From assembly GCF_004359215.1 (NCBI RefSeq), contig NC_090619.1, positions 6,606,179 through 6,670,178 on the forward strand: a stretch of DNA of 64,000 nucleotides, written 5' to 3'. This document shows, in pieces, positions 28,398-53,887 of this stretch. A model generated the notes under the pieces. It was not told where the DNA came from. It saw nothing but the letters and a program-made list of their open reading frames with translations, and made no database searches. The DNA is from Bremia lactucae. Lineage: Eukaryota; Oomycota; Peronosporomycetes; Peronosporales; Peronosporaceae. Positions within the stretch are counted from its first letter, which is position 1; each line of letters begins with the position of its first letter. The position numbers and the translations under genes were made by a program.

Positions 28398-28510
28398 TCG
28401 CCTTTTGATATGAGGTGGCTTTCAATGGGTGCGCAGCGCTGATGGACAAGTTTTTCATTGTCCATCAGCGCTGCGCACCCATTGAAAGCCATTTCATTCC
28501 AAAAGGCGTA
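28398..28510. repeat. long near-perfect hairpin
   Basis: 28417-28449 and 28458-28490 are perfect 33-bp inverted complements with an 8-nt loop. Pairing continues imperfectly outward, with CGCCTTTT near 28400 complementary to AAAAGGCG near 28501-28508, giving stems of about 50 bp. No copy elsewhere in the window. Confidence 0.85.
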
Positions 28511-29402: not shown

Positions 29403-32400
29403 CTACATCGAGCACAAGACATCACCATGAAGATAGCCCACGTGTTTGCCTCCCCACGTAAGAGAGACATCGAACGGAATTGGTTTGGCATCACTAAGTA
29501 TGGGCGCTGCATGCATCATTAAGTCCGACTCTTTCAGACAAAGGACGCCTTGACCACCATAACCCTTTTCGGCTTCAATGCTGATGGCAATGTGCACGCC
29601 ACCATTCACTGCTTTCGTAATGGCTGAGTGGGTCACGCCATTTGACATGGCATCTTTCCATGCAACTGTGCGGTAATTCGTGTAAGCCAACTGAGACTCC
29701 TCGTCATCATCCACGCGAGCGCTCGATTGGAAGCCATTTTGAACCAAGTGAGCGACCTCGTAGACCTTACGCTGAAGCGCATAGACATCTTCAGACGGCA
29801 AAGGAAATATGGTGGAAATGCTAATGGGTTCCAAAGGTACCAGTTCGAGTTGAAAAGCCTGATTCTCATTAGTCATGACCAGAGGTTGAGAAAGTGGGGG
29901 TCCACTTGTATAGACTGAAAAATGATTCGGTGTCGTCGTGACTCTTGAGCTTGAAGTGCTGCTTGAGTGCAGACGACTCATTCGAAGCACGCGGCCAACC
30001 ACGTGAACTATTGTGGACTTGTTGCGACTCGTGGATGCCGGCAACGTGATCTCGCCACGACTGCTTCGTGTACTGATCGAAATGTTGGCAACGCGGCTGC
30101 TCTGGCTTTGATGACTACTCGAGGCATTCGATTCATTTCCTCGCCGGCGATGGTTTAAAGGCTGCCCTAAAGAGCCTCTTCCTTCATCGCGTTCGTATGC
30201 CCAGATATTAGCATCCAACTTGATTAATTTGATTTTAAATTCGTGCACGTCGCGTTTATCGCGGAGCGCATGATTTCCTTGACGCATGTCTGCAATGGCG
30301 GCTTCATCCATGTTATACGAAAAGAATCGGTCAATTTCGAGCTCATAGATGCTGCAGACTGGCTTGTGTGTTGATGTCACAATCTTCTCACATGACCAAT
30401 AACCGATATTTTTAATTCGCGACTTCGTATCACTCAGAGAATGCGCTAAGATCCGGTCTTTATACGCTGGAGGCGAGTCAACCACTAGCATCTCGTCGTC
30501 GAGATCGCAAAAAAACTTTTGACACGAGCGCTCTCCGACCATTGAGAACTTAGCCGCGACTCCAACTTGCCGTGGAAACGACGGCAAAAATCGAATCGCA
30601 GGCTCTTCAAATCCTGTAAAGATTTCTTTAGCCTCAATTGATGCTTGAAGCTCATCATACCTTAGCACGTCAAGCCACTTCGAGGCCGTGTTTTCACTCA
30701 CAAGGTCCGATTTAGATATCAAATCCCGAATTTTCTTGTTACTTCCCCGAGCAAGTGGAGCAAAATGGCCGCTTGACGTCAGTCGATCAATGGACGTGAT
30801 TCGGTCGCTTGAAGTTAGTCGATCGTTTGAATATTGTTTGTTAAACGAAGTCGATTGAACTAAGTGGTCTTCTGTTGGGATATGTTCGTCCAGAAACGAG
30901 GCCCAATTCTTGCCTGCCGTTCCGCTATCGTCCATTCCGTCATAAACCTTGATCGCCAAGCTGTTTAAATCTTCATCATTATTCGCAATTGCGGGTGGCA
31001 ATTTGTCAGCTTGTCGCCCTGTGTCTGTTGGCAATTTGACTAGCGTGAAAGAGACACTGTCGTCCGAGACAGTGTATAGTTCTTCATAAATACTATCGCT
31101 ACCCGACGATATTGAGACTTCAGCGCTAACCCGCGGACTGTCCCACACATCAAAGCTCTGCTCTAAGATTGTCGTTTGAGGATCGAGTTGAGAATCCGAG
31201 CTCTTTTTCTCTGGATTGAATTTGGCCTCGCGAATCGCATTAATCTGGCCTTCAAGAGCAGTTATCGTGGCAAGCTTTAAAGACTCAGCCTTGTACGCTT
31301 GATCAATTGCTGCAGCCAAATCGGACGATGACATATCGAGATCGTAGTTTAAATTACCCGAGAGAATCGTGTGATGGTATAAATTTGGAAAGTCAACCGC
31401 TGCCCGGTCCGCGTCCATTTCAAACGAATGAATGAGGCTTGATGCAACGGCGTGCTTCGCAAGAATGCGATCCACGGGTCGATACAGTCGTTGTGAGCTG
31501 TTGCTAAGAGACGTGCTGAGGTTGCACGATACAAACGCTATCGATGCGTCAAAGTAGCGAATGGGGATCCCAACGACTTCGTTGAATGTCTTTCGCTGAG
31601 CCCAAATTCGTCCGTCGGCGGCTTGAAATTTTACGTTCCCGCTGGCATCGTCGGCATTATTTACGAATACGATTTGACAAACCGACGCCTACAAAACACA
31701 TTGGGACGTAGTGTCATCAGCCTGGTATTCCTGAGCCAATACTTTCGATTAACGTACGTCCTGATGATGGCCTCGCTGAGCTGTACCAGCAATGGACGTG
31801 ATGGAGCGGTAAGCTGTTGGGAAATTTACTTGTATCAGGTATCCTCGAATGGCCTGCTCAATCGCTTGCACGTCAACACAGTGCTGGAGTGAAAAGACAT
31901 ACAAATCTTTACCAGAGGGGATCCAGTCTTTTAAATTCGTTGGACAAGAACTCCAATTCATGTCAAACGTCGTGACAAAGATCGTGGCTGTGCCCATCTG
32001 ATGCCGCTCTTGCTCCCGCCATCGCATCGATTGCTGTAACATCTCTGACGGCGCTTTGGTAGGTTTCATCGGGATTTCACAGCCGCTGACCCACGGCCCT
32101 CGTACGTGCCGCACGACCCAAATGTGAAATTTGCCATAGATCACAGCATTCACAAAGCCTTGAAGGGGTACAATGGTCGCGTGCAGCAAGTCGAGCGTGA
32201 ACGAAGTCTTGCCAGTGATCGTAGTGTAGGCGCGGTCTACGACGGCTGGCAGCCAGCAAAAGATAAAGCCAGAGATATAAAACGTGAGATTGTGCACCAC
32301 AACGTAGTATGCATCATTAGCATCGTCGTTCTGGTTCGATTTTAATCGCTTCTTCATATTTATCTTGACTAGGACCAGAAAGACTGTCATCGCGGTGCCT

Positions 32401-33113
32401 CCGACAATCACCCAAAAGTATAACGCTCCGTACATCCACAAGAGCTCTTCCGTTGAGTTGTCGTCCACTACAACCCAACACCAGAGCCCAGCATCGCCAA
32501 ATTTGTTAAACACGAGGCAAATAAACGGTATGCTTGTAGTAAAGGCCAGCGTACTGACTATGTACCACTTGATCTTCTTCATTAGCATTTGCTGGTCTTC
32601 ACCCATGCAAACCCAACGGTACAAATTCAGTGCGATGATAAAGTTCCAGACGATTGGTGCGCCGTCTCCGAACGTAATGACTACAATAGCCGTTTAGATA
32701 GTGTAAGAACGATACGAATACAGCGTTTTCTAGCGAGCATACCAAAGGCCTGGAGCTTGCAAATAGGAGTCACTGGCTCGCCTGCATCCTGATCAAACGT
32801 CTCTGTGGGCAGGACACCAAACGCGCGTCCAGTCGCGCCAAAAAGATCCTATCATGAGTCTGTTAGACAAATTTAATGATTGAAGAGCCGAGGCTTTACG
32901 TACGAGGTACGCAATAATATGAATGAGCTCTTTAGTGACATCGAGATGATGTGCCGAGGCCGCGTAAACGGATAGCGACTTGGCCTTCAGTCTCCGCGCA
33001 TACCAGTAGCGACCAATGATGTAGCACGATCCGATAATGGAGAGAATGGAGGCCGTGGCCGACGCGACAGTCTGGTAATATTGGCGATGCTCCTCGCGCG
33101 GAGTCGACGGCAT
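29403..33113 (-). CDS. GPCR fused to an inositol-phosphate 5-phosphatase-like domain
   Basis: Four exons by hand: 33113-32904, 32848-32743, 32680-31758, 31688-29403. Introns of 55, 62 and 69 nt all have GT-AG ends and keep the frame, giving 1174 residues. Residues 1-290 form a seven-helix receptor: TM1 15-38, TM2 62-82, TM3 100-124 starting at CKLQAF, TM4 145-164, TM5 190-211, TM6 231-253, TM7 267-288 ending QGFVNAVIYGKF. From 335 a 5-phosphatase fold follows: TTFDMN, SLQHC (369-373), SGNLNY (523-528), PPAYKDRIL (819-827), STHKPV (852-857). A serine- and aspartate-rich insertion of about 200 residues (540-750) splits it; a C-terminal beta-rich region ends at 1174. Receptor-catalytic fusions, including receptor-phosphatase ones, are an established oomycete protein class. 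Residues usually needed for catalysis are altered, so it may not be an active enzyme. The start at 33113 is the first ATG before TM1; an earlier one at 33203 is possible. Confidence 0.85.
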
Positions 33114-37142: not shown

Positions 37143-37932
37143 TGTAGTTATTTGTGAACAGGGAATTAAAGTTTAAATCGTTGAACCCCTAACAGCTTTT
37201 CAATCACAGAAACTCTTAAAAGTCACTCGCTAAGCGAGGGCAAGACAACCTCCATTATTCAGCAAAACGACGTCATTGCGGTTTAAACGGCCTATTTCAT
37301 TGCCATGCGGATGGCGCGGTGTATGTAAGGGCACGTACTAGAGCATCCGTAGCGATTTGTAAAGAACTTCGCGTTTACAGTGGTCTCGCGAGTTGTAAGT
37401 ACCATTTGAGCCAGATGTCGAAACCACAACCCACTCGCGTGCGTAAGACACGGGTTCAGCCTCTTTACTCAGTAAATGACAACGTTGTTGTCAGCAAATC
37501 ATGCGTAGAGCCAACTCTGGACTTATGTTGCCACGTCGTCCCTGAGTATCTGTTACATGAAACGGATGCGCATACCACATGGTGACAGAATTCGTGAAGG
37601 CAGCTCTGTCCCGTTCTGTCAAGACATAAATGTTGCGCTAGCACCACGCTTACCGGTTTCAAAGGATATACAATTATAGAGTTTCCAAGCCGATTTACTC
37701 CTTTGAAATCTGCTGCTAGATAGACTTTTGGTGTTACGAGAAATTATATTAAGCAAGATTACGTCGGCCTAATTGTGTAGGGTTGTGGGCAGGGTGGACA
37801 TTACTCAATGCGGTCGAGTCTGACTCTCTCACATCATAACGGCGCGACCCAGCAGAGTGCACGAAAGCGCTTAAGCATCGTCCCATCCAGCAGGCGACGA
37901 CAAGAGACACCACCGAGGGCAACAAACACACA
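37143..37932. promoter_or_regulatory. upstream region of the myosin gene
   Basis: 790 bp between the decayed gene and the myosin start. No retroelement similarity was noticed. The last 100 bp are purine-rich (AGGCGACGACAAGAGACACC near 37890), as often seen before oomycete starts. A TATA box or the oomycete initiator consensus could not be placed with confidence. Confidence 0.4.
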
Positions 37933-40900
37933 GTGTCTAATTCGACAATGGATGTGGGTGCAGAGGTGGACGTGCAGGTAGGGCCACAGAATTGGCGACG
38001 TGTGCAGATCATCGATCGCTACGCACGTTCCATTGAGGCGTCTGGTGCCGTGGTCGTTGTCAAGTTTGAGGATGGCAGCATTGCGGAGCGAGCTGTTCCT
38101 TCCGATGTGAATCAAGATGCACCCGACGTGCGACTGCTGTCTCCTGGCCAGGGCCAGCGCTTTGATGTGGATGATCTTACGCAACTTATTGAGCTTGACG
38201 AGTCTTCGATTTTATCGGCCCTCGAGACGCGGTTTGCAGAGAATAAAATATATACCAACACAGGAGCAATCTTACTAGCGGTGAATCCCTTTCAGAAATT
38301 CCCCAACATGTATAATAAAGAAACAATGATCAAGTATCTATTGACGTTCGAGTCGAAGAGCTCGTCTACGCGGAACAAAAGAAATGAAAGTATGCCCCCT
38401 CACATTTATCAAGTGGCTGGAGAAGCTTATAAGGCGATGATGCTTGGAATGAATGGCATCATGAGTGATCAGAGCATTCTTGTGAGTGGAGAGAGCGGCA
38501 GTGGAAAGACTGAGAGCACGAAATTTCTCATGGAATACCTAGCTCAAGCAGGCGTGAATAATGTAGCAGCGAACGCTGTTAGTAAATCCCCAGAAGGCAT
38601 AGCAGCCAAAGTATTGCAAACGAACATCCTCCTTGAGTCTTTTGGTAACGCGCGCACTTTACGTAACGACAATTCAAGTCGATTTGGCAAGTTTATTAAG
38701 CTTCACTTTACAAGTGGAGGCCAACTTCGAGGGGCTAGTATTCAAACGTATCTGTTGGAAAAAGTTCGACTTGTATCACAGTCCAAGGGCGAGCGAAATT
38801 ATCATATATTTTACGAAATGGCTAGTGGAGCAGAGCCTGCCGCTAGAAAGCGCTGGCTCTTGGATCCACCGCAAGGCCACGCGAAGTCAGCAGGAGACCA
38901 CAGTAATTTTTCTGATGCTTCGCGCCAATTTTCGCACTATCGATATTTGAGCCAGAGCGAGTGCTTCCAGCGGAATGATGGGGTGAGGGACTTGGAAATG
39001 TTTCGGCGAGTCATGGACGCCATGGATATTGTGGGCTTTACATCCGTGGAACGGGCTGGGATATTCGACATAATTGCGGCGCTCATGCACATTGGGAATT
39101 TGTCCTTTGAGCACGATGAAAATAGTGACAAGGCGGGGCAGTCGACGGATTCTGGAGCACAAGAGTCTGATCTGGCACCAAGTTGCATCTGGTCACGTGA
39201 TGCAGCAGCCATGCTGATGGCTGTTGATGCGTCAGAACTCGAGCGCGCTTTAAGTGTGCGCCGGATTCGTGCTGGCACTGATTTTGTCCGGATGAAGCTT
39301 TCGGCCGCGCAGGCTAACAATGCACGCGACGCACTGGCTAAGGCACTGTACGGTCGTTTGTTTGACTGGATGGTGAAGAAAATCAACCACTTTCTTCGGA
39401 TGGATGATAGTGAAAAAGCCAAGGGCGGACTTCATTTTATTGGTATTCTTGACATTTTCGGCTTTGAAGTGTTTCCAAAAAACTCGTTTGAGCAGCTTTG
39501 CATCAATTTTGCTAACGAGACGCTGCAGCAACAATTTAACGACTACGTGTTCAAGGCTGAGCAGCGCGAGTACGAGTCACAGGGGGTTGACTGGAAATAT
39601 ATTGAATTTTGCGATAATCAGGATTGTGTGAATCTTATCTCACAAAGACCGACGGGCATTCTTTCGCTAATTGATGAAGAGTGTGTGATGCCCAAAGGAA
39701 GCGACACGACATTAGCATCCAAACTTTATCGTGCATGTGGCAGCCATCCTCGATTTGAGGCTTCTCGAATTCAGCGTGCACGTGGTTTATTTACGGTAGT
39801 TCACTATGCAGGTCATGTGGAATACTCGTCTGATGGATTTTTAGAGAAGAACAAGGACGTTCTTCACCAAGAGGCTGTCGATATGCTTGCGTATTCAACT
39901 CGAAAGGACAGTTTTGCTCGTACTTTATGTGAGGGGATTGGCGGCTCACAAGATCGCTTAAAATCCTCTCCGCGTCAACGTGCTCAAACTAGCAAAAATC
40001 GTGGAGCGAGTGTCGGGCTTCAATTTAAGGAGCAATTGACGACATTACTGGAAACGTTGCAGCGAACGAATCCGCATTACGTGCGATGTCTGAAGCCTAA
40101 CGAGTTATGTAAGGCAGGAAAATTCGAGAGCGAACGTGTGCTGAGTCAATTACGCTGCAACGGTGTCATGGAGGCCGTGCGCGTGGCTCGAGCTGGCTAT
40201 CCGATTCGTCTACCGCTCGATGTCTTTGTCGCTCGCTACTATAGCTTAAAAACTAAAAAAACACTTGTCAACAAGAAGCATAAAATGTCGAAAGGCTTAC
40301 CAGATCCGGATGCAGGGGTTGATATGGCTGTCGTTAGCAATGAAGCCAAGGAGCTTTTGGATGATTTGCTGAAGATCATTCCCAAAGAAAATGACGCAAA
40401 CCCTCAAGGCGCGTGCGAACGGCCAGAACAGGGTCACTTCGTATCGAAGTGTTTCGCAGTAGGCATTCAGATGGGGTCTTCGAAAATATTTTTAAAGAAA
40501 ACGACGTATGATATTCTCGAGGAAACGCGGACTCAACAGCTTCATCGCCACATGGTTAAGATTTTTTACGCGGTGTTGGCATTGACTGCCCGTTCTCGTT
40601 ACTTGCGCTACCTTCGTGCCATTCAAATTTTACAGCTTCGATTTCAATACAAGAAGCTTCGAAAAGTGTATCGACGTCATCAGGTCTTGATGATAAGGAG
40701 AAAAAATGCAGGCACGGTCAAGAATTTTATTCGCTCTGTGGTGCAGCGGAAGAAGTATGTTTGCTTTCTCGCTGTTGTACGGATGCTCCAATGCCGCTTC
40801 AGACATCGTCGAAGAATGCTAGCAAAGCGAAGAATGGCCGCTCAAGCAAAAAAGCTCGCGGATTCAAAGCGGCAACAACAGCTTGCGCAGACTGCAAACC

Positions 40901-42174
40901 AGTACACTGAAAGCTCGACGGTATCTTCGGATTCGTCATCTCCGCAATCATTGACATCACTTTTTAATGATATTGAAAGTTCTGGGATCTCGAATGTGTC
41001 ATCAAAGGATGCAGATGAAATGTTTGCTTACAATGAAAACTTTCCGAAGCATAACCTCAATACTGTTGACGAACAAAGTAGCCACTTAGACCCCCGAGCG
41101 TCTCAACGTGTCTCTCTTCGAAAGACGCAATCCACTAATTCGATACCTCAAATCGGTGGGCTTCAAGTATCACAGATACACGATAGTAACAGCAGTCAAG
41201 GACTCTTAGTTCATACGCCAGGGTCAAGGTCATCACGCAAGTCATCTTTCCGTAACACTCGGTCGTCGCGTGCAGTGGCTCTACCAAGACTCGATGTGAT
41301 CCAGCACACGTCTTGGGTAAATGATGAAGATCGTTTCAGCTGCCATATTTGTAACAAGCGCTTTAGCATTTTTAAGCGCAAACATCACTGCCGAGCGTGT
41401 GGTGAAGTCATTTGCAATAGCTGCTCACTGTATCATCGTATTCAGTCTCGGTCCATGCGTGTATGCGTTTCATGTGTTGCGTTTCATTCGCTTGACAGCC
41501 CGACTTCGGCCGGATCGACGGGGCTTCTACGTACAGGTGGCGTCAGTCCTTTTTCGTCAAATTCAAGTCGAAAGACATCGAATGGTTCGGCTCCGGATCG
41601 CAACCGAAGTAGTACCCTTAGTAGCGGCGTGTGGCTGAACCCGTGGCCGGAGCCGCCTTATCCACTTGACGAGGATGAGCGCTTAATCGTCTTGCACGAA
41701 CTCAACATCCGTGAGCTTGGATTGTCCGGTAAATTTAACATGTATTGTGAAGTAGCGGCCAAGACGATGAAGTGTCCGATCGCCTACGTGAGTATTATCG
41801 AGGATGAAGAGCAGCTGTTAGTGGCCAACATCGGCATGGCGCACACGACGCTGCCTCGTGAGCTGTCATTCTGCGCACACACAATTTGTCAGCCTAGTGT
41901 TCTGGTTGTGCTGGATACGAAGAATGATGAGCGGTTCCGTGAAAACCCAATGGTGAAGGGGGAAAAAGGTGCCGTCAAGATTCGATACTACGCCGGCGCA
42001 ACCATTTTCTCGCGCGATGGACATGCGCTTGGCACGGTAGCCGTACTGGACACCAAGCCAAGACGGGAAGCAGACCAGGAGCACATTGGCATGTTGCAGC
42101 ACCTGAGCTTTCTAGCGAGCGAAAAGATGACGCAAAGCACCATTCAAGAAGATAGTGAGAGTGATTTCTTATAA
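37933..42174 (+). CDS. myosin with C-terminal FYVE and GAF domains
   Basis: A single exon of 1413 residues. An N-terminal SH3-like segment (about 10-60) precedes the motor. The P-loop GESGSGKTES is at about 187-196; switch I NDNSSRFGKF at about 243; switch II DIFGFEVF at about 505; the actin-contact helix with NPHYVRCLKPNE at about 712-723; and a converter near 860. Basic IQ-like repeats follow (about 880-970), then a serine-rich linker. A FYVE finger spans about 1126-1180: CHIC, the signature KRKHHCRACG, CNSC and CVSC give eight zinc ligands. A GAF-like domain fills about 1250-1400 (NIRELGLSGKFNMYCEVAAK, FCAHTICQPSVLVV, AGATIFSRDGHALGTVAVLD). FYVE domains usually bind PI3P on endosomes, so the motor probably moves on actin with endosomal cargo. 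Myosin-FYVE combinations are known from oomycetes. The start is the first ATG pair, with MDVGAEVDV five residues on as an alternative. No breaks. Confidence 0.93.
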   Translation: MSNSTMDVGAEVDVQVGPQNWRRVQIIDRYARSIEASGAVVVVKFEDGSIAERAVPSDVNQDAPDVRLLSPGQGQRFDVDDLTQLIELDESSILSALETRFAENKIYTNTGAILLAVNPFQKFPNMYNKETMIKYLLTFESKSSSTRNKRNESMPPHIYQVAGEAYKAMMLGMNGIMSDQSILVSGESGSGKTESTKFLMEYLAQAGVNNVAANAVSKSPEGIAAKVLQTNILLESFGNARTLRNDNSSRFGKFIKLHFTSGGQLRGASIQTYLLEKVRLVSQSKGERNYHIFYEMASGAEPAARKRWLLDPPQGHAKSAGDHSNFSDASRQFSHYRYLSQSECFQRNDGVRDLEMFRRVMDAMDIVGFTSVERAGIFDIIAALMHIGNLSFEHDENSDKAGQSTDSGAQESDLAPSCIWSRDAAAMLMAVDASELERALSVRRIRAGTDFVRMKLSAAQANNARDALAKALYGRLFDWMVKKINHFLRMDDSEKAKGGLHFIGILDIFGFEVFPKNSFEQLCINFANETLQQQFNDYVFKAEQREYESQGVDWKYIEFCDNQDCVNLISQRPTGILSLIDEECVMPKGSDTTLASKLYRACGSHPRFEASRIQRARGLFTVVHYAGHVEYSSDGFLEKNKDVLHQEAVDMLAYSTRKDSFARTLCEGIGGSQDRLKSSPRQRAQTSKNRGASVGLQFKEQLTTLLETLQRTNPHYVRCLKPNELCKAGKFESERVLSQLRCNGVMEAVRVARAGYPIRLPLDVFVARYYSLKTKKTLVNKKHKMSKGLPDPDAGVDMAVVSNEAKELLDDLLKIIPKENDANPQGACERPEQGHFVSKCFAVGIQMGSSKIFLKKTTYDILEETRTQQLHRHMVKIFYAVLALTARSRYLRYLRAIQILQLRFQYKKLRKVYRRHQVLMIRRKNAGTVKNFIRSVVQRKKYVCFLAVVRMLQCRFRHRRRMLAKRRMAAQAKKLADSKRQQQLAQTANQYTESSTVSSDSSSPQSLTSLFNDIESSGISNVSSKDADEMFAYNENFPKHNLNTVDEQSSHLDPRASQRVSLRKTQSTNSIPQIGGLQVSQIHDSNSSQGLLVHTPGSRSSRKSSFRNTRSSRAVALPRLDVIQHTSWVNDEDRFSCHICNKRFSIFKRKHHCRACGEVICNSCSLYHRIQSRSMRVCVSCVAFHSLDSPTSAGSTGLLRTGGVSPFSSNSSRKTSNGSAPDRNRSSTLSSGVWLNPWPEPPYPLDEDERLIVLHELNIRELGLSGKFNMYCEVAAKTMKCPIAYVSIIEDEEQLLVANIGMAHTTLPRELSFCAHTICQPSVLVVLDTKNDERFRENPMVKGEKGAVKIRYYAGATIFSRDGHALGTVAVLDTKPRREADQEHIGMLQHLSFLASEKMTQSTIQEDSESDFL

Positions 42175-42335
42175 ATTACGTCCGGTGTTTGACGGCATAG
42201 CCTTTATTCGCCATTACTCTTGTTTGACACCAAGTTTTTCAAAGATAATTATTTTAAAATTACTATAAACGCTCAGGGTTGTCGACAAATTCCTAACTCG
42301 GCCCTCATCAAATCCCTCGCTAGCTTTTGCAGATC
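42175..42335. other. 161-bp convergent 3' intergenic region
   Basis: It separates the stop codons of the plus-strand myosin and the minus-strand PX gene, so both 3' UTRs must end or overlap here. AT-rich near 42240-42270; no clear poly(A) signal was assigned. Confidence 0.6.
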
Positions 42336-43313
42336 CTACTTGGCCACACTCGTCAAGCGATTCGCTTCTTGCTTCTCGCGCATTTGAGCTGCAAAATAGC
42401 GACTACTGTCCACAATCTCCTCGATACTAGCAATGCACTGCTTGATCTGGCCAACGTAATGATGCTCAGGCGTCGACACGTATTCGAGCGCACTGCCAAT
42501 GGAGTCTCGATCCTCTTTTTTCAGAAAAAGACGATCAGAGTCCAAGCTAGGATCAAACATGACGCGTTTCATGTTCTGCGAGTTGAGCGACATACTAAAT
42601 GGGCGTGTAGTCACCTGCCGAGAGAGCAACGGCGGCGCCGAAGGCGCGCGGACTCGGGGGGAACTATCTTTAGCGGGGTCACTGGAAGCGTCCGAGTTCT
42701 GCCGCTGTACCGTGGTATCCAGGCCAATCTGTTCCGTTGTAGCATTTTCCTTCTCGTCCGTAAGCGAGTCCTGCGGCTGTCTTTCCTTCTTGCCGGATTG
42801 AAGAGCAAGCAAATCTTCTTTCGATTCTTGTTCTTCAATGGATGACTGGATGGAATAAAGACCACCAATTTCCGATGCAGGTTCCGTGAACGATGTATTC
42901 GACCGCCTAGAGCCGAGTCTGCTGTCGATGACTCGATCCTCTTCCTCCTTCGGCGCATAATCTTCTAGTTGCAATAGCTTCAAGAGCCTCTCCCGGCTGC
43001 GAGGTGTCAACGGCCGGGCACACACCTGCTGTATGTATTCATTGAGCATCACCTGACGAGCCTCAATTGTCTCGGGCTGCATTGAAGCTTTGCGACTCCA
43101 CCAAATTTTATGCGGCATTTTCACGTCAATAGGTGGCGCTTCAGGTGCTAGTTTAAGATTCTTACTAAAGTGAAAAAAATGACGGAAACGAATCAGGCGG
43201 TGGTAGCACAGTCCGTTGTAATTGACGGATGTCCGGTACACAGTGTAAGCCCGTGACGTGCCTGGGTTGCGCGTCTGCGAGCCGATCACGGCCACGCGCA
43301 GATGATCATCCAT
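42336..43313 (-). CDS. PX-domain protein
   Basis: 325 residues from the ATG at 43313; an in-frame ATG at 43397 would add 28 residues without domain content, so I prefer the inner start. Residues about 5-115 form a PX (phox homology) domain: AVIGSQTRNPGTSRAYTVYR as strands 1-2, the basic RLIRFRHFFHF at 39-49 in the place of the R-R-Y/F lipid-binding motif, PHKIWW at 67-72 (proline-rich loop region), and EARQVMLNEYIQQVCARPLT (84-103) as the late helix. The rest (120-325) is acidic, polar and probably disordered, with a short helix at the end (GQIKQCIASIEEIVDSSRYF). PX domains bind phosphoinositides, mostly PI3P, on endosomes. It converges on the myosin-FYVE gene with 161 bp between stops. A second identical copy lies at 48638-49615. 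Confidence 0.85.
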   Translation of the reverse strand: MDDHLRVAVIGSQTRNPGTSRAYTVYRTSVNYNGLCYHRLIRFRHFFHFSKNLKLAPEAPPIDVKMPHKIWWSRKASMQPETIEARQVMLNEYIQQVCARPLTPRSRERLLKLLQLEDYAPKEEEDRVIDSRLGSRRSNTSFTEPASEIGGLYSIQSSIEEQESKEDLLALQSGKKERQPQDSLTDEKENATTEQIGLDTTVQRQNSDASSDPAKDSSPRVRAPSAPPLLSRQVTTRPFSMSLNSQNMKRVMFDPSLDSDRLFLKKEDRDSIGSALEYVSTPEHHYVGQIKQCIASIEEIVDSSRYFAAQMREKQEANRLTSVAK

Positions 43314-44151
43314 GCCGCAGTTGCTGTTTCGATTGGATGGAGCGTGGCGAGAGCCCCACAAGCAGCGCAAAGAGCTGGAGAAGATGCCACACAACACGGT
43401 GATCGAAGGTGTTCTCTATACTTGGTTTGAAATAGCAGAGTGAGGAACCAGATATGCGAAATGTCAGAGAAGTGCTAATTTGTTGTTAATTACGCAAAAG
43501 CTGGCTTAACCTAGATGTTGAACTGGGGTGGTAATGTCCCGCCGTTGTGAAAGTAATAAATGCGATGCTTACTGAGACAGGCGAGCTTCTGGGCACTGCA
43601 TAGAAAAGTGGCGGGAAATGTTACCAGATTAGTAGTAAAGACAGAGCTGTCTGCAAATAGTTATGACTGCAGAATGGCACAGTCGAAGACATTCATTATG
43701 GACGGAATGTTGGTGTGAGAAAATTCATGACCGTTGCTGACCAGGTTTTAATAACATCAACATTATTGGGTTACTGCTAGAACTAATTAGGTGTGAAATT
43801 ATACCAATGCTTGCAAATGCACTTATTAGATGCTGATATGTCAGCCACATCAAAGTGATTTCTTTTCAAAAGTTATAAAAGCTCGGACGATATTTCATTT
43901 GTATGAACCGCTTACATCTGGGGATGTCGTTACACCATTCATGCAGGTCGGAACTTTCCCGACAAGGAATTTATAAGTGAGTTGCTAAGGTAACAAAAAT
44001 GAATTCAACATATATTCAGCCGGCCTTGTCCGCTTTACCTGTATAAAGGCTTATGGGAAACTCTTTTTTTTTTGGTACGTAAGTACAACATTATTATCTT
44101 ATACTAATTTTGACTTAATAGTTCCAATATTACCAAAATTGGTAACATCGA
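43314..44151. other. upstream region of the PX gene, no other gene
   Basis: 43314-43440 holds the 5' leader side of the PX gene. 43440-44100 shows no frame or repeat that I recognise. 44110-44150 resembles the AATATTAC blocks found just inside the LTRs. The 5' flank of the LTR at 44152 is here. Confidence 0.5.
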
Positions 44152-45287
44152 TGTAATGGGGCACGCATCAGTTGGATAACCTTTGTTGTGGTACATTTAC
44201 TATATGGGTAAAATACCCGTTCATCCTATTCTAAAATAGTTAAAAAACTTTAAATCCCATTCATTGTGGGTAACGAATGTGTCGCCGCCAGATTTAAATC
44301 TGGCTGCCAAAATCTATTTTCGAATTAGCTAGGGTAAGGTTTTTAGACTTCAATTGTAGCGGAGCTACCTCGCTCCTAAAGTCAGAGGAAGACTTTCAGA
44401 CTCAGAGAGTCACTTAGTTCTATTGAACTAATGGGTATAACAACTCAGGGAGTCGTACAAGCTATAAAAGCTTAAGGAATCCTAGTTCAAGGATATCAGG
44501 GGTTCGTAGAACCAAGTGGCAACTTGTGCCCAAGACGATATACCTTAGAAAGGCTTCTATCTCTTACAGATCTATGCGCGAGCGTTAGGAAGGCACTTAA
44601 CGTGTAGCAGAGCTACCTCGCTCCTAAAGTCAGAGGAAGACTTTCAGACTCACAGAGTCATTTGTTCTATTGAACTAATGGATTTAATAACTCAGGGAGT
44701 CGTACAAGCTATAAAAGCTTAAGGAATCCTAGTTCAAGGAATTTAGGGATTCGTAGAACCAAGTGGCAACTAGCGCCCAAGAGGATATACCTTTGAAAGG
44801 CTTCTATCCCTTACAGATCAATGCGCAAGCCTTAGGAAGGCACTTAACGCTATAAGATCAAAAGGGGGACTGCACTTTATTTAATTATTTAAATTGAAAA
44901 ACCTTACCCTAGCTAATTTAATATAGATTTCGCCCGCCAGATATAAATCTGGCGGCTAAAATCTATTTTTAATTAGCTAAGGTAGGGTTTTTAGCTTTAA
45001 ATAATTAAATAAAGTGCAGTTCACCTTTTGGTCTTAAAGCGTTAAGTGCCTTCCTAACGCTCGCGCATTGATCTGTAAGAGATAGAAGCCTTTCTAAGGT
45101 ATATCCTCTTGGGCAACAGTTGCCACTTGGTTCTACGAACCCCTGAATTCCTTGAACTGGGATTCCTTAAGCTTTATTGGCTTTTACGACTCCCTGAGCT
45201 GTTAAACCCATTAGTTTAATAGAACTAAGTGACTCTTTGAGTCTGAAAGTCTTCCTCTGACTTTAGGAGTGAGGTAGCTCCGCTACA
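44152..45287 (+). repeat. chromovirus 5' LTR disrupted by inverted LTR pieces (foldback)
   Basis: 44152 begins TGTAATGGGGCACGC in plus orientation and runs to 44354. 44355-44602 and 44603-44942 are two LTR pieces in minus orientation. 44947-45287 is plus orientation again and ends GTAGCTCCGCTACA next to the primer site. 44603-44942 and 44947-45287 are inverted copies of each other around 44944.5, giving arms of about 340 bp. The 5' LTR was therefore invaded or rearranged by inverted LTR copies. Confidence 0.8.
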
Positions 45288-45304
45288 CCTAGTAGCACTT
45301 GTTG
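45288..45304 (+). promoter_or_regulatory. chromovirus primer-binding site
   Basis: CCTAGTAGCACTTG follows the LTR end directly. Other elements here have CCTGGTAGCACTT at this place (57958, 62646), so this copy carries a G-to-A change. It would pair with a tRNA ending AAGTGCTACCA. Confidence 0.55.
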
Positions 45305-45347
45305 TCAATCTACGCCTGAGTCTTTACATAACTAATTTCTCACGAAA

Positions 45348-47016
45348 ATGGAAGAGTATCCAGAATTGTCGGAAGCGCAACGCGCCGCTTATGACAAGCT
45401 CAAAACCTTCTTTGGGCTTGAGCACGTGGAATTTATTATCTCTTAGGGACCAGAGGTCCTGTATGCAAGGCTTGAAGCCTTCATGCGGTACGAAGCCTCC
45501 CTGATCGGTCAGGAACAGGTTCACTTAGCGGCATCTATGCCAACCCGGTACATCTCTGTACCTGACTCAGAGCCGAAGGCTCGCCTTTCAACTATAAATG
45601 TGAAGACGTTTGAGGGAAGAGAGGGAGAAAATCTCCTTTTTTGGATTAAGCAGATGGAAACGTCCATTGATTCCGCCTTGTTCTTAACAGAACGGCAAAA
45701 GGTGGCTATGGCCATTTCCAAACTTGGAGGTAGAGCCATGGAGTAGGCACTATCGTGCAGTACGTCCATAAACGACGCTTTTGCCTTATGGGATTCGCTG
45801 AAACAGCATATGACCAGCATGTTAGCATCGCCTGATGAGGCTTTTCGCATGCGAGCACGGCTCCTAGCGACTCGATAGGGTAAACGAACCCTAGGGGACT
45901 TTGTCCAGGAGTTGAGAATCCTCATTGCATCGATGCGTCAAGACCCAGTCCAAGAAGCAATTGTCGTAACCATCTTTATGGGGGGTCTCAATGAGGGCGT
46001 TGCCTGGACGGAATTGTTCCGATCTCATTCTGCTTCTTTCGAAGAGGCAGTTGTTATAGTGCTACGCGCTGAGTTCGACTTTTAGTCTGCTCGCGTTAGT
46101 ACGCCTGTTTACCGAACAAGCTCTTCGAGCACATGGTTTCGTCTAATAGAGCGGAACCTATGGATTTAAGCCTCGTTGAGGAAGGAGAAGAGGCTCTTCA
46201 AGCTGTGGAACGGCATAAGACCTTCCGTAGATGTTATATGTGCGGAAGCACGAAACATTTACGTCCGGCCTGCCCCCTACGAAATTCGCGTGAAGCTCGA
46301 AAGAGCTCCAACTCCGACCTATACCAGAGATCTGGTACGGTGCGGGAAAACGTCGATACCCAGTAGGAGCGGGGCGCCCAATTGGGGAAGACCTAGGCTC
46401 TGTCAAACCTCTAGGAGGTGAGAGTAAATGGGACCTAGCCCCAATTAGCTCGATAATTTAATGGTACGGGGTGAGAGTACAAGCCTGGCTTGCTAGTTGC
46501 TCAAGCGACTGTAAAGGGCATTGATAAGCCAAGGTCAATTTTAATTGACTCAAGAGCATCTTGCAATTATGCTCGACGCCTTTCCCTTGAAGGAAGTCAA
46601 CAATACGTTGAGACGCTTAGAGCGCATGAAGGTGATACAACCAATGTTCGCTTAGCGACTGGGACTCGTGTCACTGATCCCAAAGTTCCATTGAACTTAG
46701 GTATAAAGTTTCTGGACTTTGATAGTGTGGAACGCTGTCTCGTCCTTCATTTGGATTCAAGATATGATCTCATCCTTGGTATGGCCTGGCTAGAATACCA
46801 TGAGCCATGGATCGATTGGAGGTCTAAGACCTTAGGCGCCACGCGGAATGTTCCTAGCAAAGTTTTGGAGAGTCATGAACCCACCTCTGCTAGGCAACAA
46901 AAGCGCTATTGGCGCGGATCATTGAATGAGTCTGTCAGTGTTTTAGACAGTGGCATGCCTGAGTTAATAAACTCTAATGTTAAAAAAATAATTCTGAGCC
47001 CGACTCAGCAGAAATA
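45348..47016 (+). pseudogene. chromovirus gag-protease, copy 1
   Basis: Gag starts at 45348 (MEEYPELSEAQRAAYDKLKT), with an in-frame TAG at about 45444. It continues with [20 protein letters not shown] to a stop at 45744, then DSLKQHMTSMLASPDEAFRM, TLGDFVQELRILIASMRQDP and other gag helices. A CCHC zinc knuckle (CYMCGSTKHLRPAC) is complete at 46231-46275. Protease-like sequence runs 46490-47016: the active-site triad reads DSRAS instead of the expected DSGAS, and the flap end is RYDLILGMAWLEYHEPW. Gag packages the RNA; protease would cleave the polyprotein. The stops and the altered active site mean this copy is not functional. Confidence 0.8.
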
Positions 47017-47100
47017 AGTGGAACGGCACGTGCTCCGTCGAGTGACACTCGTTGTAATAACGATTCACTGATTGATGGAAGCATTGTTGGCCGAAGGCCG

Positions 47101-47424
47101 AGTTATCAAGGGTTACGTGGAGTAACACGTCTAAGTCCACCGAGTATGGTCGGCCGAGGTGGCATCATGCTGAGTGTCAGTAGTGACACTGTTGGCGGTT
47201 CGCCAGGACCTCAACGAAGCAATGTCCCTGAGACACATGGACTGGCACGTCTAAGTCTACCGAGTATGGTCGGCCGAGGTGGCATCATATTGAGTGTCAG
47301 TAGTGACACTGTTAGCGGTTCGCCAGGGCCTTAAGGATGGAATATCGCTGAGATACGTGGAGTGGCACGTCTAAGTCCACCGAGTGTGGTCGGCCGAGGT
47401 CGCACCATACTGAGTGTGCATTAA
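47101..47424 (+). repeat. 120-bp tandem repeat in the protease-RT linker
   Basis: CACGTCTAAGT starts at 47126, 47246 and 47366, an exact 120-bp period. The frame encodes a 40-residue unit containing LPSMVGRGGI and SVSSDTVGGSPGP. The third unit is incomplete. Since 120 is divisible by three, the repeat number can change without shifting frame. Confidence 0.9.
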
Positions 47425-47632
47425 AAAAGTTTGACCGTAAATGCCCTGGCGAACCGCCGAAGCATTTTTAGGTCAAACCCTTCTAATGCACGTGAAGCGA
47501 CACGTAAACGTTCGCTGGATAAGAAAGTTGAGTTACCTAACTTCTTGTCGAATGTCAAATTAGACACCGTGTCTTGTATAGAACCAATACATGCTGGAAA
47601 ATTCGGGGACGTGAATGTCCCGGCCTCTAAGA

Positions 47633-47633
47633 N
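47633..47633. other. single N at a contig-like join
   Basis: The only ambiguous base noticed in the window. Left of it, the linker stops inside CCTCTAAGA; right of it, the sequence restarts in the middle of the myosin FYVE domain. The interrupted linker continues properly at 54090, the end of the second copy of the block. Confidence 0.9.
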
Positions 47634-48476
47634 CGTTTCAGCTGCCATATTTGTAACAAGCGCTTTAGCATTTTTAAGCGCAAACATCACTGCCGAGCGT
47701 GTGGTGAAGTCATTTGCAATAGCTGCTCACTGTATCATCGTATTCAGTCTCGGTCCATGCGTGTATGCGTTTCATGTGTTGCGTTTCATTCGCTTGACAG
47801 CCCGACTTCGGCCGGATCGACGGGGCTTCTACGTACAGGTGGCGTCAGTCCTTTTTCGTCAAATTCAAGTCGAAAGACATCGAATGGTTCGGCTCCGGAT
47901 CGCAACCGAAGTAGTACCCTTAGTAGCGGCGTGTGGCTGAACCCGTGGCCGGAGCCGCCTTATCCACTTGACGAGGATGAGCGCTTAATCGTCTTGCACG
48001 AACTCAACATCCGTGAGCTTGGATTGTCCGGTAAATTTAACATGTATTGTGAAGTAGCGGCCAAGACGATGAAGTGTCCGATCGCCTACGTGAGTATTAT
48101 CGAGGATGAAGAGCAGCTGTTAGTGGCCAACATCGGCATGGCGCACACGACGCTGCCTCGTGAGCTGTCATTCTGCGCACACACAATTTGTCAGCCTAGT
48201 GTTCTGGTTGTGCTGGATACGAAGAATGATGAGCGGTTCCGTGAAAACCCAATGGTGAAGGGGGAAAAAGGTGCCGTCAAGATTCGATACTACGCCGGCG
48301 CAACCATTTTCTCGCGCGATGGACATGCGCTTGGCACGGTAGCCGTACTGGACACCAAGCCAAGACGGGAAGCAGACCAGGAGCACATTGGCATGTTGCA
48401 GCACCTGAGCTTTCTAGCGAGCGAAAAGATGACGCAAAGCACCATTCAAGAAGATAGTGAGAGTGATTTCTTATAA
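47634..48476 (+). pseudogene. myosin 3' fragment, second copy
   Basis: 280 residues identical to residues 1134-1413 of the myosin gene, starting in frame within the FYVE domain (first codon is R1134 of DRFSCHIC) and containing the rest of FYVE, the linker and the GAF-like domain. It has no start or motor and begins immediately after the N. It is either an assembly overlap or the broken end of a tandem duplication; it is not a separate gene. Confidence 0.85.
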
Positions 48477-48637
48477 ATTACGTCCGGTGTTTGACGGCAT
48501 AGCCTTTATTCGCCATTACTCTTGTTTGACACCAAGTTTTTCAAAGATAATTATTTTAAAATTACTATAAACGCTCAGGGTTGTCGACAAATTCCTAACT
48601 CGGCCCTCATCAAATCCCTCGCTAGCTTTTGCAGATC

Positions 48638-49615
48638 CTACTTGGCCACACTCGTCAAGCGATTCGCTTCTTGCTTCTCGCGCATTTGAGCTGCAAAATA
48701 GCGACTACTGTCCACAATCTCCTCGATACTAGCAATGCACTGCTTGATCTGGCCAACGTAATGATGCTCAGGCGTCGACACGTATTCGAGCGCACTGCCA
48801 ATGGAGTCTCGATCCTCTTTTTTCAGAAAAAGACGATCAGAGTCCAAGCTAGGATCAAACATGACGCGTTTCATGTTCTGCGAGTTGAGCGACATACTAA
48901 ATGGGCGTGTAGTCACCTGCCGAGAGAGCAACGGCGGCGCCGAAGGCGCGCGGACTCGGGGGGAACTATCTTTAGCGGGGTCACTGGAAGCGTCCGAGTT
49001 CTGCCGCTGTACCGTGGTATCCAGGCCAATCTGTTCCGTTGTAGCATTTTCCTTCTCGTCCGTAAGCGAGTCCTGCGGCTGTCTTTCCTTCTTGCCGGAT
49101 TGAAGAGCAAGCAAATCTTCTTTCGATTCTTGTTCTTCAATGGATGACTGGATGGAATAAAGACCACCAATTTCCGATGCAGGTTCCGTGAACGATGTAT
49201 TCGACCGCCTAGAGCCGAGTCTGCTGTCGATGACTCGATCCTCTTCCTCCTTCGGCGCATAATCTTCTAGTTGCAATAGCTTCAAGAGCCTCTCCCGGCT
49301 GCGAGGTGTCAACGGCCGGGCACACACCTGCTGTATGTATTCATTGAGCATCACCTGACGAGCCTCAATTGTCTCGGGCTGCATTGAAGCTTTGCGACTC
49401 CACCAAATTTTATGCGGCATTTTCACGTCAATAGGTGGCGCTTCAGGTGCTAGTTTAAGATTCTTACTAAAGTGAAAAAAATGACGGAAACGAATCAGGC
49501 GGTGGTAGCACAGTCCGTTGTAATTGACGGATGTCCGGTACACAGTGTAAGCCCGTGACGTGCCTGGGTTGCGCGTCTGCGAGCCGATCACGGCCACGCG
49601 CAGATGATCATCCAT
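48638..49615 (-). CDS. PX-domain protein, second copy
   Basis: The same 325 residues as 42336-43313, offset by 6302 bp, without a difference in the predicted protein. Whether the genome really has two copies depends on the join at 47633. Flanking sequence is also identical on both sides, including the convergent 161-bp spacer. Confidence 0.75.
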   Translation of the reverse strand: MDDHLRVAVIGSQTRNPGTSRAYTVYRTSVNYNGLCYHRLIRFRHFFHFSKNLKLAPEAPPIDVKMPHKIWWSRKASMQPETIEARQVMLNEYIQQVCARPLTPRSRERLLKLLQLEDYAPKEEEDRVIDSRLGSRRSNTSFTEPASEIGGLYSIQSSIEEQESKEDLLALQSGKKERQPQDSLTDEKENATTEQIGLDTTVQRQNSDASSDPAKDSSPRVRAPSAPPLLSRQVTTRPFSMSLNSQNMKRVMFDPSLDSDRLFLKKEDRDSIGSALEYVSTPEHHYVGQIKQCIASIEEIVDSSRYFAAQMREKQEANRLTSVAK

Positions 49616-50453
49616 GCCGCAGTTGCTGTTTCGATTGGATGGAGCGTGGCGAGAGCCCCACAAGCAGCGCAAAGAGCTGGAGAAGATGCCACACAACACG
49701 GTGATCGAAGGTGTTCTCTATACTTGGTTTGAAATAGCAGAGTGAGGAACCAGATATGCGAAATGTCAGAGAAGTGCTAATTTGTTGTTAATTACGCAAA
49801 AGCTGGCTTAACCTAGATGTTGAACTGGGGTGGTAATGTCCCGCCGTTGTGAAAGTAATAAATGCGATGCTTACTGAGACAGGCGAGCTTCTGGGCACTG
49901 CATAGAAAAGTGGCGGGAAATGTTACCAGATTAGTAGTAAAGACAGAGCTGTCTGCAAATAGTTATGACTGCAGAATGGCACAGTCGAAGACATTCATTA
50001 TGGACGGAATGTTGGTGTGAGAAAATTCATGACCGTTGCTGACCAGGTTTTAATAACATCAACATTATTGGGTTACTGCTAGAACTAATTAGGTGTGAAA
50101 TTATACCAATGCTTGCAAATGCACTTATTAGATGCTGATATGTCAGCCACATCAAAGTGATTTCTTTTCAAAAGTTATAAAAGCTCGGACGATATTTCAT
50201 TTGTATGAACCGCTTACATCTGGGGATGTCGTTACACCATTCATGCAGGTCGGAACTTTCCCGACAAGGAATTTATAAGTGAGTTGCTAAGGTAACAAAA
50301 ATGAATTCAACATATATTCAGCCGGCCTTGTCCGCTTTACCTGTATAAAGGCTTATGGGAAACTCTTTTTTTTTTGGTACGTAAGTACAACATTATTATC
50401 TTATACTAATTTTGACTTAATAGTTCCAATATTACCAAAATTGGTAACATCGA

Positions 50454-51590
50454 TGTAATGGGGCACGCATCAGTTGGATAACCTTTGTTGTGGTACATTT
50501 ACTATATGGGTAAAATACCCGTTCATCCTATTCTAAAATAGTTAAAAAACTTTAAATCCCATTCATTGTGGGTAACGAATGTGTCGCCGCCAGATTTAAA
50601 TCTGGCTGCCAAAATCTATTTTCGAATTAGCTAGGGTAAGGTTTTTAGACTTCAATTGTAGCGGAGCTACCTCGCTCCTAAAGTCAGAGGAAGACTTTCA
50701 GACTCAGAGAGTCACTTAGTTCTATTGAACTAATGGGTATAACAACTCAGGGAGTCGTACAAGCTATAAAAGCTTAAGGAATCCTAGTTCAAGGATATCA
50801 GGGGTTCGTAGAACCAAGTGGCAACTTGTGCCCAAGACGATATACCTTAGAAAGGCTTCTATCTCTTACAGATCTATGCGCGAGCGTTAGGAAGGCACTT
50901 AACGTGTAGCAGAGCTACCTCGCTCCTAAAGTCAGAGGAAGACTTTCAGACTCACAGAGTCATTTGTTCTATTGAACTAATGGATTTAATAACTCAGGGA
51001 GTCGTACAAGCAATAAAAGCTTAAGGAATCCTAGTTCAAGGAATTTAGGGATTCGTAGAACCAAGTGGCAACTAGCGCCCAAGAGGATATACCTTTGAAA
51101 GGCTTCTATCCCTTACAGATCAATGCGCAAGCCTTAGGAAGGCACTTAACGCTATATAGATCAAAAGGGGGACTGCACTTTATTTAATTATTTAAATTGA
51201 AAAACCTTACCCTAGCTAATTTAATATAGATTTCGCCCGCCAGATATAAATCTGGCGGCTAAAATCTATTTTTAATTAGCTAAGGTAGGGTTTTTAGCTT
51301 TAAATAATTAAATAAAGTGCAGTTCACCTTTTGGTCTTAAAGCGTTAAGTGCCTTCCTAACGCTCGCGCATTGATCTGTAAGAGATAGAAGCCTTTCTAA
51401 GGTATATCCTCTTGGGCAACAGTTGCCACTTGGTTCTACGAACCCCTGAATTCCTTGAACTGGGATTCCTTAAGCTTTATTGGCTTGTACGACTCCCTGA
51501 GCTGTTAAACCCATTAGTTTAATAGAACTAAGTGACTCTTTGAGTCTGAAAGTCTTCCTCTGACTTTAGGAGTGAGGTAGCTCCGCTACA
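50454..51590 (+). repeat. disrupted chromovirus 5' LTR, second copy
   Basis: Same foldback structure as 44152-45287. Differences: one extra base near 51153 (CTATATAGATC against CTATAAGATC), an A for T near 51011, and a G for T near 51486. These few differences are allele-like. Confidence 0.8.
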
Positions 51591-51650
51591 CCTAGTAGCA
51601 CTTGTTGTCAATCTACGCCTGAGTCTTTACATAACTAATTTCTCACGAAA

Positions 51651-53474
51651 ATGGAAGAGTATCCAGAATTGTCGGAAGCGCAACGCGCCGCTTATGACAA
51701 GCTCAAAACCTTCTTTGGGCTTGAGCACGTGGAATTTATTATCTCTTAGGGACCAGAGGTCCTGTATGCAAGGCTTGAAGCCTTCATGCGGTACGAAGCC
51801 TCCCTGATCGGTCAGGAACAGGTTCACTTAGCGGCATCTATGCCAACCCGGTACATCTCTGTACCTGACTCAGAGCCGAAGGCTCGCCTTTCAACTATAA
51901 ATGTGAAGACGTTTGAGGGAAGAGAGGGAGAAAATCTCCTTTTTTGGATTAAGCAGATGGAAACGTCCATTGATTCCGCCTTGTTCTTAACAGAACGGCA
52001 AAAGGTGGCTATGGCCATTTCCAAACTTGGAGGTAGAGCCATGGAGTAGGCACTATCGTGCAGTACGTCCATAAACGACGCTTTTGCCTTATGGGATTCG
52101 CTGAAACAGCATATGACCAGCATGTTAGCATCGCCTGATGAGGCTTTTCGCATGCGAGCACGGCTCCTAGCGACTCGATAGGGTAAACGAACCCTAGGGG
52201 ACTTTGTCCAGGAGTTGAGAATCCTCATTGCATCGATGCGTCAAGACCCAGTCCAAGAAGCAATTGTCGTAACAATCTTTATAGGGGGTCTCAAAGAGGG
52301 CGTTGCCTGGACGGAATCATTCCGATCTCATGCTGCTTCTTTCGAAGAGGCAGTTGTTATAGTGCTACGCGCTGAGTTCGACTTTTAGTCTGCTCGCGTT
52401 AGTACGCCTATTTACCGAACAAGCTCTTCGAGCACATGGGTTTCGTCTAATAGAGTGGAACCCATGGATCTAAGCCTCGTTGGGGGATCGTTCAAGTGAC
52501 TTAAATTGCTCATTTAAAATTTCAAGTCCTGATTATCATGAAACTGGGTTAGAAGAGGGAAGTGCTCCAGAAGATTTGGAATCACGTCGAGTTACATAAC
52601 GTATTGTAGCTCCGCTTGGGAAAAGGAGCGCAATAAGGGAAGGAGAAGAGGCTCTTCAAGCTGTGGAAAGGCATAAGACCATCCGTAGATGTATATGTGC
52701 GGAAGCACGAAACATTTACGTCCGGCCTGCCCCCTACGAAATTCGCGTGAAGCTCGAAAGAGCTCCAACTCCGACCTATACCAGAGATCTGGTACGGTGC
52801 GGGAAAACGTCGATACCCAGTAGGAGCGGGGCGCCCAATTGGGGAAGACCTAGGCTCTGTCAAACCTCTAGGAGGTGAGAGTAAATGGGACCTAGCCCCA
52901 ATTAGCTCGATAATTTAATGGTACGGGGTGAGAGTACAAGCCTGGCTTGCTAGTTGCTCAAGCGACTGTAAAGGGCATTGATAAGCCAAGGTCAATTTTA
53001 ATTGACTCAAGAGCATCTTGCAATTATGCTCGACGCCTTTCCCTTGAAGGAAGTCAACAATACGTTGAGACGCTTAGAGCGCATGAAGGTGATACAACCA
53101 ATGTTCGCTTAGCGACTGGGACTCGTGTCACTGATCCCAAAGTTCCATTGAACTTAGGTATAAAGTTTCTGGACTTTGATAGTGTGGAACGCTGTCTCGT
53201 CCTTCATTTGGATTCAAGATATGATCTCATCCTTGGTATGGCCTGGCTAGAATACCATGAGCCATGGATCGATTGGAGGTCTAAGACCTTAGGCGCCACG
53301 CGGAATGTTCCTAGCAAAGTTTTGGAGAGTCATGAACCCACCTCTGCTAGGCAACAAAAGCGCTATTGGCGCGGATCATTGAATGAGTCTGTCAGTGTTT
53401 TAGACAGTGGCATGCCTGAGTTAATAAACTCTAATGTTAAAAAAATAATTCTGAGCCCGACTCAGCAGAAATAA
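51651..53474 (+). pseudogene. chromovirus gag-protease, copy 2
   Basis: Like copy 1 (45348-47016) up to about 52265 and after about 52800. Between these points it follows the copy at 26220-26750 instead: it has the extra 154 bp at about 52482-52638 and lacks a T in the zinc-knuckle region, so the CxxC of the knuckle is lost. Protease (52947-53474) again reads DSRAS. Gag has the same TAG after its first 31 codons. Not functional. Confidence 0.8.
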
Positions 53475-53557
53475 GTGGAACGGCACGTGCTCCGTCGAGT
53501 GACACTCGTTGTAATAACGATTCACTGATTGATGGAAGCATTGTTGGCCGAAGGCCG

Positions 53558-53880: not shown

Positions 53881-53887
53881 AAAAAGT

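Follow-up and report, generated by a model that had tools for sequence, protein, structure and literature searches.

A conserved GPCR-INPP receptor of Bremia lactucae and its orthologues with a probable pseudo-5-phosphatase domain

Gene and Protein Architecture

The window analysed here is a stretch of 64,000 nucleotides from the oomycete Bremia lactucae, the lettuce downy mildew, on contig C10 of the 115.9-Mb genome, and the subject of this work is a reverse-strand gene within it, the product of which is identical to the annotated protein CCR75_005010 (P0001, 1174 amino acids). Each of its three introns (55, 62, and 69 nt) has GT..AG ends, and the frame is open throughout (Table 1). The residue numbering of the original prediction, which had been made from the letters of the window, agrees with this spliced model.

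The protein carries an N-terminal seven-transmembrane (7TM) domain of the G-protein-coupled receptor (GPCR) type and a C-terminal inositol polyphosphate phosphatase (INPP) domain, the two parts that characterize GPCR-INPP bigrams, an oomycete class described earlier (van den Hoogen et al. 2018, PMC5784254; PMC6033456) and reported with the same arrangement oomycete-wide (PMC5784254). The orthologue from Phytophthora agathidicida is named GPCR-INPP 1 in its database record; we found no paper for this name.

A search with CCR75_005010 gave 52 proteins including itself, several of them near duplicates that come from different strains of a single species, and a search with a second GPCR-INPP of Bremia gave 96 proteins, Saprolegniales included. 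The joint alignment A3 has 119 rows: 35 from the orthologue group of CCR75_005010, the metagenomic protein P0150, 79 from the group with intact motifs (below, the intact group), and 4 outgroup rows. It omits 18 of the 53 orthologue-group proteins (P0150 aside), which are near copies or partial or fused models, P0149 among them, and 13 of the 96 matches of the second search. Many rows of the intact group are partial or metagenomic, and not every row need carry a receptor.

The structure model used was built from A3, intact paralogues included (mean predicted local distance difference test score, pLDDT, 77.6); a prediction from the close orthologues only (alignment A1) was too poor, with a mean pLDDT of 47.7, and was set aside. 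The alignment to SHIP chains spans residues ~332–1174, covering the phosphatase fold and then the C2 domain, and pLDDT is at least 90 in 11 of 15 ten-residue blocks of residues 1031–1174. The insert in the phosphatase domain is 183 amino acids long in Bremia, 137–231 in ten members of the orthologue group, and 45–206 in the seven intact relatives measured.

SHIP1 and SHIP2 also have a phosphatase–C2 module, and the likeness of CCR75_005010 to them is one of architecture only: identity to SHIP2 is ~22%, no SH2 family is among its Pfam matches at E 0.01, a GPCR is attached, and the catalytic residues are gone. A SHIP-like C2 domain is apparently common to GPCR-INPPs, being seen in CCR75_005010 (residues 895–1174) and in the C-terminal parts encoded by the genes L017 and L018; it is not mentioned in the passages of PMC5784254 and PMC6033456 drawn on here.

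Table 1. Features of the CCR75_005010 gene, with window coordinates; residue counts are for A3 rows with letters at the site, orthologue rows against others, and Synj1 is synaptojanin1.
Feature	Residues	Position	Strand	Remarks
Whole gene, spliced model		29403..33113	(-)	4 coding exons; GPCR, 5-phosphatase fold, and C2
Coding exons		33113-32904, 32848-32743, 32680-31758, 31688-29403	(-)	stop included
7-transmembrane receptor domain and linker	1-333	31998..33113	(-)	
5-phosphatase-fold domain	334-868	30324..31997	(-)	split by intron 31757-31689
TFD	343-345	31962..31970	(-)	metal-binding Asn (Synj1 N543) replaced by D345; D 23/23, N in 75/75 others
LQH	370-372	31881..31889	(-)	metal-binding Glu (Synj1 E591) replaced by H372; H 23/24 (one R), E in 75/75 others
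NEVVG	449-453	31569..31583	(-)	stands where N-K-G contacts the 1-phosphate; motif mostly lost
CNLSTS	468-473	31509..31526	(-)	N-x-H His (Synj1 H689) replaced by N469; N 33/34 (one D), H in 77/77 others
GNLN	524-527	31347..31358	(-)	general-base Asp (Synj1 D730) replaced by N525; N 34/34, D in 77/77 others
D529	529	31341..31343	(-)	place of 5-phosphate-binding Arg (Synj1 R734), charge reversed
Long insert	560-742	30702..31250	(-)	mostly low pLDDT
S818	818	30474..30476	(-)	place of 4-phosphate-binding Arg (Synj1 R800), lost
PAYKDRIL	820-827	30447..30470	(-)	signature mostly kept, T to K at 823
STH	852-854	30366..30374	(-)	S-D-H Asp replaced by T853; T 33/35, S 2/35; H854 (Synj1 H859) kept 35/35
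C-terminal part	895-1174	29406..30245	(-)	strand 895-912, disordered linker, C2-like domain ~1028-1174

Substitutions in the Catalytic Site

The substrate complex of Synj1 defines the roles of the residues in a 5-phosphatase site: N543 and E591 form the metal site, D730 is the general base, H689, H859, and R734 bind the 5-phosphate, N668 and K669 contact the 1-phosphate, and R800 contacts the 4-phosphate (PMC7781601). We mapped CCR75_005010 to Synj1 by motif and alignment, with no use of coordinates. By this mapping, several of the residues expected of an active 5-phosphatase are replaced, namely the Asp of G-D-x-N, the metal-binding Asn and Glu, and the His of N-x-H and the Arg that hold the 5-phosphate. 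The Asp of S-D-H, T853 in CCR75_005010, is a family motif residue that is not discussed for Synj1 in the passages cited from PMC7781601.

The substitutions listed in the original prediction stand at the places given there, except that the His of S-D-H is kept, and the lost His is that of N-x-H. N527 (Synj1 N732), the Asn of G-D-x-N that orients water, is likewise retained in 34/34 orthologue rows and 77/77 others. The substrate contacts are mostly lost. Position 529 is R in 78/78 others and in 0/34 orthologue rows, 31 of which have D, and the aligned column of position 818 holds R or K in 78/78 others and in 0/35 orthologue rows. The equivalents of Synj1 N668 and K669 are positions 448–449, F and N in CCR75_005010; at the place of N-K-G, the orthologue rows keep N448 in 0%, K449 in 29% (10/34), and G450 in 0%, each residue being present in at least 95% of the others.

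The PAYKDRIL segment, for which a full match had been claimed, keeps most of the signature, departing from P(A/S)W(C/T)DR(I/V)L at two letters, Y for W and K for C/T. The Y is also found in the intact GPCR-INPPs; K823 occurs in 35/35 orthologue rows as against T in 75/77 others, and D824 and R825 are present in all 35. The position of Synj1 Y784 is F or Y in similar proportions in the two groups, and the column of Synj1 K798 is gapped in most rows of the intact group.

Distribution of the Loss among Orthologues and Paralogues

The 52 proteins found with CCR75_005010 cover Phytophthora, Bremia, Plasmopara, Peronospora, Hyaloperonospora, Peronosclerospora, Nothophytophthora, Globisporangium, and Pythium, and the changes are shared across this range. 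The general base reads N in 51/51 proteins with letters there, the S-D-H place reads S-T-H in 50/52 and S-S-H in 2/52, and the N-x-H His is N in 50/51 and D in 1/51. The metal-binding Asn is D in 36/36 proteins with letters in A1, and the metal-binding Glu is H in 36/38, the other two being P0035, which has R, and P0036, the letter of which does not align there. Orthologues with intact motifs, which the original prediction had named as a sign that this copy merely decayed, were looked for and none was found: at each site, the loss is common to all orthologues that have letters there, save a single row with an unaligned letter at 372.

Counted over seven catalytic sites in A3, 0 of the 22 complete rows of the orthologue group are intact, all 22 share the same five changed sites, and 13 more rows are gapped. 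In the intact group, all 68 complete rows keep every site; among its 11 gapped rows, ten show the usual letters where present, and P0141 reads E and R at 853–854, where its alignment breaks off. The outgroup rows complete at these sites are also intact (3/3). Bremia itself holds two other GPCR-INPPs, both on contig C3 and intact at the motifs (the L017 model and P0106, not counted among the 68); the N-x-H stretch of P0106 is missing from the annotated model and intact in the genomic frame. Two more 5-phosphatase genes of Bremia, on contigs C19 and C1, have motifs that are intact as read by eye from the translations, and the motifs of the L018 gene were judged in the same way.

A profile search beyond the Peronosporales and Pythium-like genera (53 matches) added as new members only the fused model P0149 and P0150. 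The search, which needs shared words and scored the best 7986 candidates, found none from Saprolegniales or Albugo, and this is no proof of their absence from the group. In P0150 (598 amino acids), all seven catalytic sites are changed, some of them to other letters, with Q372 and Q854.

Phylogeny and Constraint

With the motif columns removed (49 rows), the orthologue group and P0150 form a single clade (100/100), present in 100% of 200 bootstrap trees, with P0150 as its deep sister and P0038 inside it. The place at which this clade branches among the intact clades is not fixed, because the outgroup row P0146, which has a very long branch, fell inside the ingroup. From the tree we infer a single origin of the changed state, older than the divergence of Peronosporales from the Pythium-like lineages.

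Between Bremia and Phytophthora ramorum, identity over the whole phosphatase domain is 0.729, as compared with 0.722 and 0.723 in two intact paralogues; the corresponding values are 0.824 vs. 0.758 and 0.704 for the receptor part and 0.92 vs. 0.745 and 0.813 for the C-terminal domain. With the insert removed, we compared the phosphatase core of P. ramorum with that of seven other species, the paralogue values being taken only from columns aligned to P0001 (Table 2). In four Peronosporales pairs, core identity is 0.86–0.90 in the orthologue group and 0.83–0.90 in the paralogues.

Table 2. Core identity of the phosphatase domain with P. ramorum; paralogue numbers in brackets where given, and the seventh species (Peronosclerospora sorghi) treated in the Discussion.
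Species	Orthologue group	Intact paralogues
Plasmopara	0.862	0.866 (2), 0.831 (3)
Peronospora belbahrii	0.895	0.896 (2), 0.860 (3)
P. destructor	0.874	0.876 (3)
Nothophytophthora	0.861	0.896 (2), 0.870 (3)
Pythium insidiosum	0.625	0.595
Pythium brassicae	0.716	0.699

There are 83 columns at least 90% fixed in both groups. The two groups have the same residue in 66 of them and different residues in 17, each of which falls within the phosphatase domain (17/55 vs. 0/28 elsewhere, Fisher p = 0.0004). When the 48 phosphatase columns that are strongly conserved and either clearly kept or clearly lost are considered, 8 of the 18 lost columns and 2 of the 30 kept columns are named active-site positions (p = 0.003). 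It should be kept in mind that this p depends on the list: it is 0.009 without D853 and 0.036 with D824 and R825 counted as active-site residues.

Within ten members of the orthologue group, the C2 domain has a mean conservation of 0.87, above both the phosphatase core (0.81) and the receptor (0.76). The former 1- and 4-phosphate contacts have conservation of 0.5–0.8 (core percentiles 0.08–0.34), and the residues that replace the metal and base positions have 0.9–1.0.

Discussion

The domain is very probably dead for 5-phosphate hydrolysis, as judged from its motifs, because it has lost the Asp that serves as general base, the two metal ligands, the His of N-x-H, and the Asp of S-D-H. The recognizable fold without catalytic motifs and the changed state conserved across orthologues are what is expected of a pseudophosphatase, and the pseudo-phosphatase attached to a receptor that was originally proposed is supported by these shared losses together with the 7TM domain and the phosphatase fold. 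We have good confidence that the domain is a functional non-catalytic module, and CCR75_005010 as a whole is probably an ancient, conserved receptor pseudo-5-phosphatase that works through docking or allostery.

According to the mechanism that we propose, the receptor would signal without lipid hydrolysis, and its phosphatase–C2 tail would work as a protein-binding module that docks effectors or pairs with the intact GPCR-INPPs, tuning their activity or their place at the membrane; it probably signals through the partners that it binds and not through removal of phosphate. Binding of protein is favoured over binding of lipid because the 1- and 4-phosphate contacts are lost and variable, the replacements at the metal and base positions are highly conserved, and C2 is the best conserved part. 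A scaffold or allosteric role is plausible. That the module specifically partners the intact GPCR-INPPs, the version that we favour, is a tentative suggestion by analogy with inactive myotubularins, which pair with active ones (PMC9464862). Equally tentative is the broader idea that an effector enzyme became a non-catalytic allosteric subunit controlling its live sister receptors, or else a new sensor of a ligand or metal formed from D345, H372, and H854; in either case a GPCR would be signalling by way of a tethered pseudoenzyme.

Several observations weigh against this interpretation. N527, H854, D824, and R825 are retained, so part of the site persists. Core identity between P. ramorum and Peronosclerospora sorghi is 0.642 in the orthologue group (P0034) vs. 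0.809 in the intact one. With the insert included, identity of the changed domain is below that of GPCR-INPP 2 in five of the six P. ramorum pairs tabled for both (P. sorghi, 0.596 vs. 0.766; Plasmopara, 0.734 vs. 0.827; P. belbahrii, 0.788 vs. 0.881), the remaining pairs, both Pythium species among them, differing by at most 0.02. The argument for partnering with intact GPCR-INPPs comes solely from co-occurrence and analogy. Finally, 140 of 352 core columns (40%) are invariant in the ten members, and for this reason we dropped the argument that conserved replacement residues prove a new function. On the whole, comparison of the proteins shows that the core of the domain is about as constrained as an active one, that the insert is less so, and that one downy mildew lineage has loosened. 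P0034 is a faster-changing member of the orthologue group.

The retained residues would suit a residual or atypical 5-phosphatase working through N527, H854, and migrated groups, but this is very unlikely, as all 22 complete orthologue rows have replacements at the general base, at the two metal ligands, and at the His of N-x-H, and in SHIP2 a single Ala at the Asp aligned to N525 (D607A) is already described as making the enzyme catalytically inactive (PMC5550278). We also consider it unlikely that the domain is a phosphoinositide sensor, binding PI(4,5)P2 or PI(3,4,5)P3 in its old pocket to sense or shield lipid near the receptor. The fold, the four retained residues, the extra Lys at 823, and the presence of C2 speak for it, but the contacts to the 5-phosphate (H469N, R529D), the 4-phosphate (R818), and the 1-phosphate (N448, with K449 only in a minority of rows) are mostly gone, and the former 1- and 4-phosphate positions drift. 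The phosphoinositide binding of the original prediction is therefore weakened for the active-site pocket, where contacts are mostly lost or charge-reversed, but binding by C2 or a surface patch may remain.

A retooled site, in which D345, H372, H854, and N525/N527 would hold a new metal, haem, or small ligand or catalyse another reaction under receptor control, is likewise improbable, given R372 in the orthologue P0035 and Q372 with Q854 in the deep relative P0150. Cimex nitrophorin, a secreted salivary haemoprotein, has no receptor, and its loss is unrelated to that of CCR75_005010. A decayed copy or gene-model artefact in Bremia might be suspected where the window is rich in repeats and a near-identical duplication of 6.3 kb lies close by, but it is extremely unlikely: the open frame equals the annotated protein, constraint is like that of the intact paralogues, and decay of the Bremia copy alone is contradicted by the same substitutions across orthologues.

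The preferred reading of a conserved receptor pseudophosphatase has parallels elsewhere, although the myotubularin and receptor protein tyrosine phosphatase (PTP) domains are unrelated Cys-based phosphatase folds and, unlike CCR75_005010, those proteins have no GPCR. The inactive myotubularins MTMR5 and MTMR12 are lipid phosphatases that stand beside live paralogues and act as regulators (PMC9464862), and the pseudophosphatase domains of receptor PTPs are also inactive, conserved beside live paralogues, and regulatory (PMC10211241).

The papers on GPCR-INPP bigrams predict catalytic activity in general terms, whereas the motifs of CCR75_005010 appear to speak against it. PMC6033456 treats it as unsettled whether GPCR-bigrams have active accessory domains, and a domain without catalytic activity figures there among several hypothetical models (Fig 2E); in PMC5784254 we found no mention of inactivity, of catalytic residues, or of pseudo-forms. 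No description of this loss was found among the best-ranked matches in the open-access PubMed Central literature, a scope that leaves out supplements and most subscription journals. For one whole orthologue group of GPCR-bigrams, the sequences thus suggest an answer on accessory-domain activity, almost certainly no. The probably inactive GPCR-INPP is a new form of an already known receptor class and offers a clean comparison, with live and dead versions of the same receptor design and fold in one organism. If the dead version is essential, at least some of what such receptors do must be independent of catalysis. The protein is also conserved in its group, to which many crop pathogens belong.

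Surroundings of the Gene

Past the 3′ end of the gene, at a distance of ~0.9 kb, lies a 51-nt inverted repeat (28399–28508; 92% complementary, 8-nt loop), which in the genome has, among the matches listed, at least its own place and a 36-nt match on contig C12. The open frame at 37840–42174 (+) is a myosin with a FYVE domain and that at 42336–43415 (−) a PX-domain protein (both by Pfam); FYVE and PX families often bind phosphoinositides. Open frames at 407–2534 resemble, by eye only, pieces of a Copia-type retroelement polyprotein. A segment of ~6.3 kb is present twice in a row, at 41327–47632 and 47629–54089, with 99.7–99.8% identity, the second copy being ~155 bases longer, and a single N at 47633 lies on the seam; this resembles either an assembly overlap that was not merged or a duplication of very recent date.
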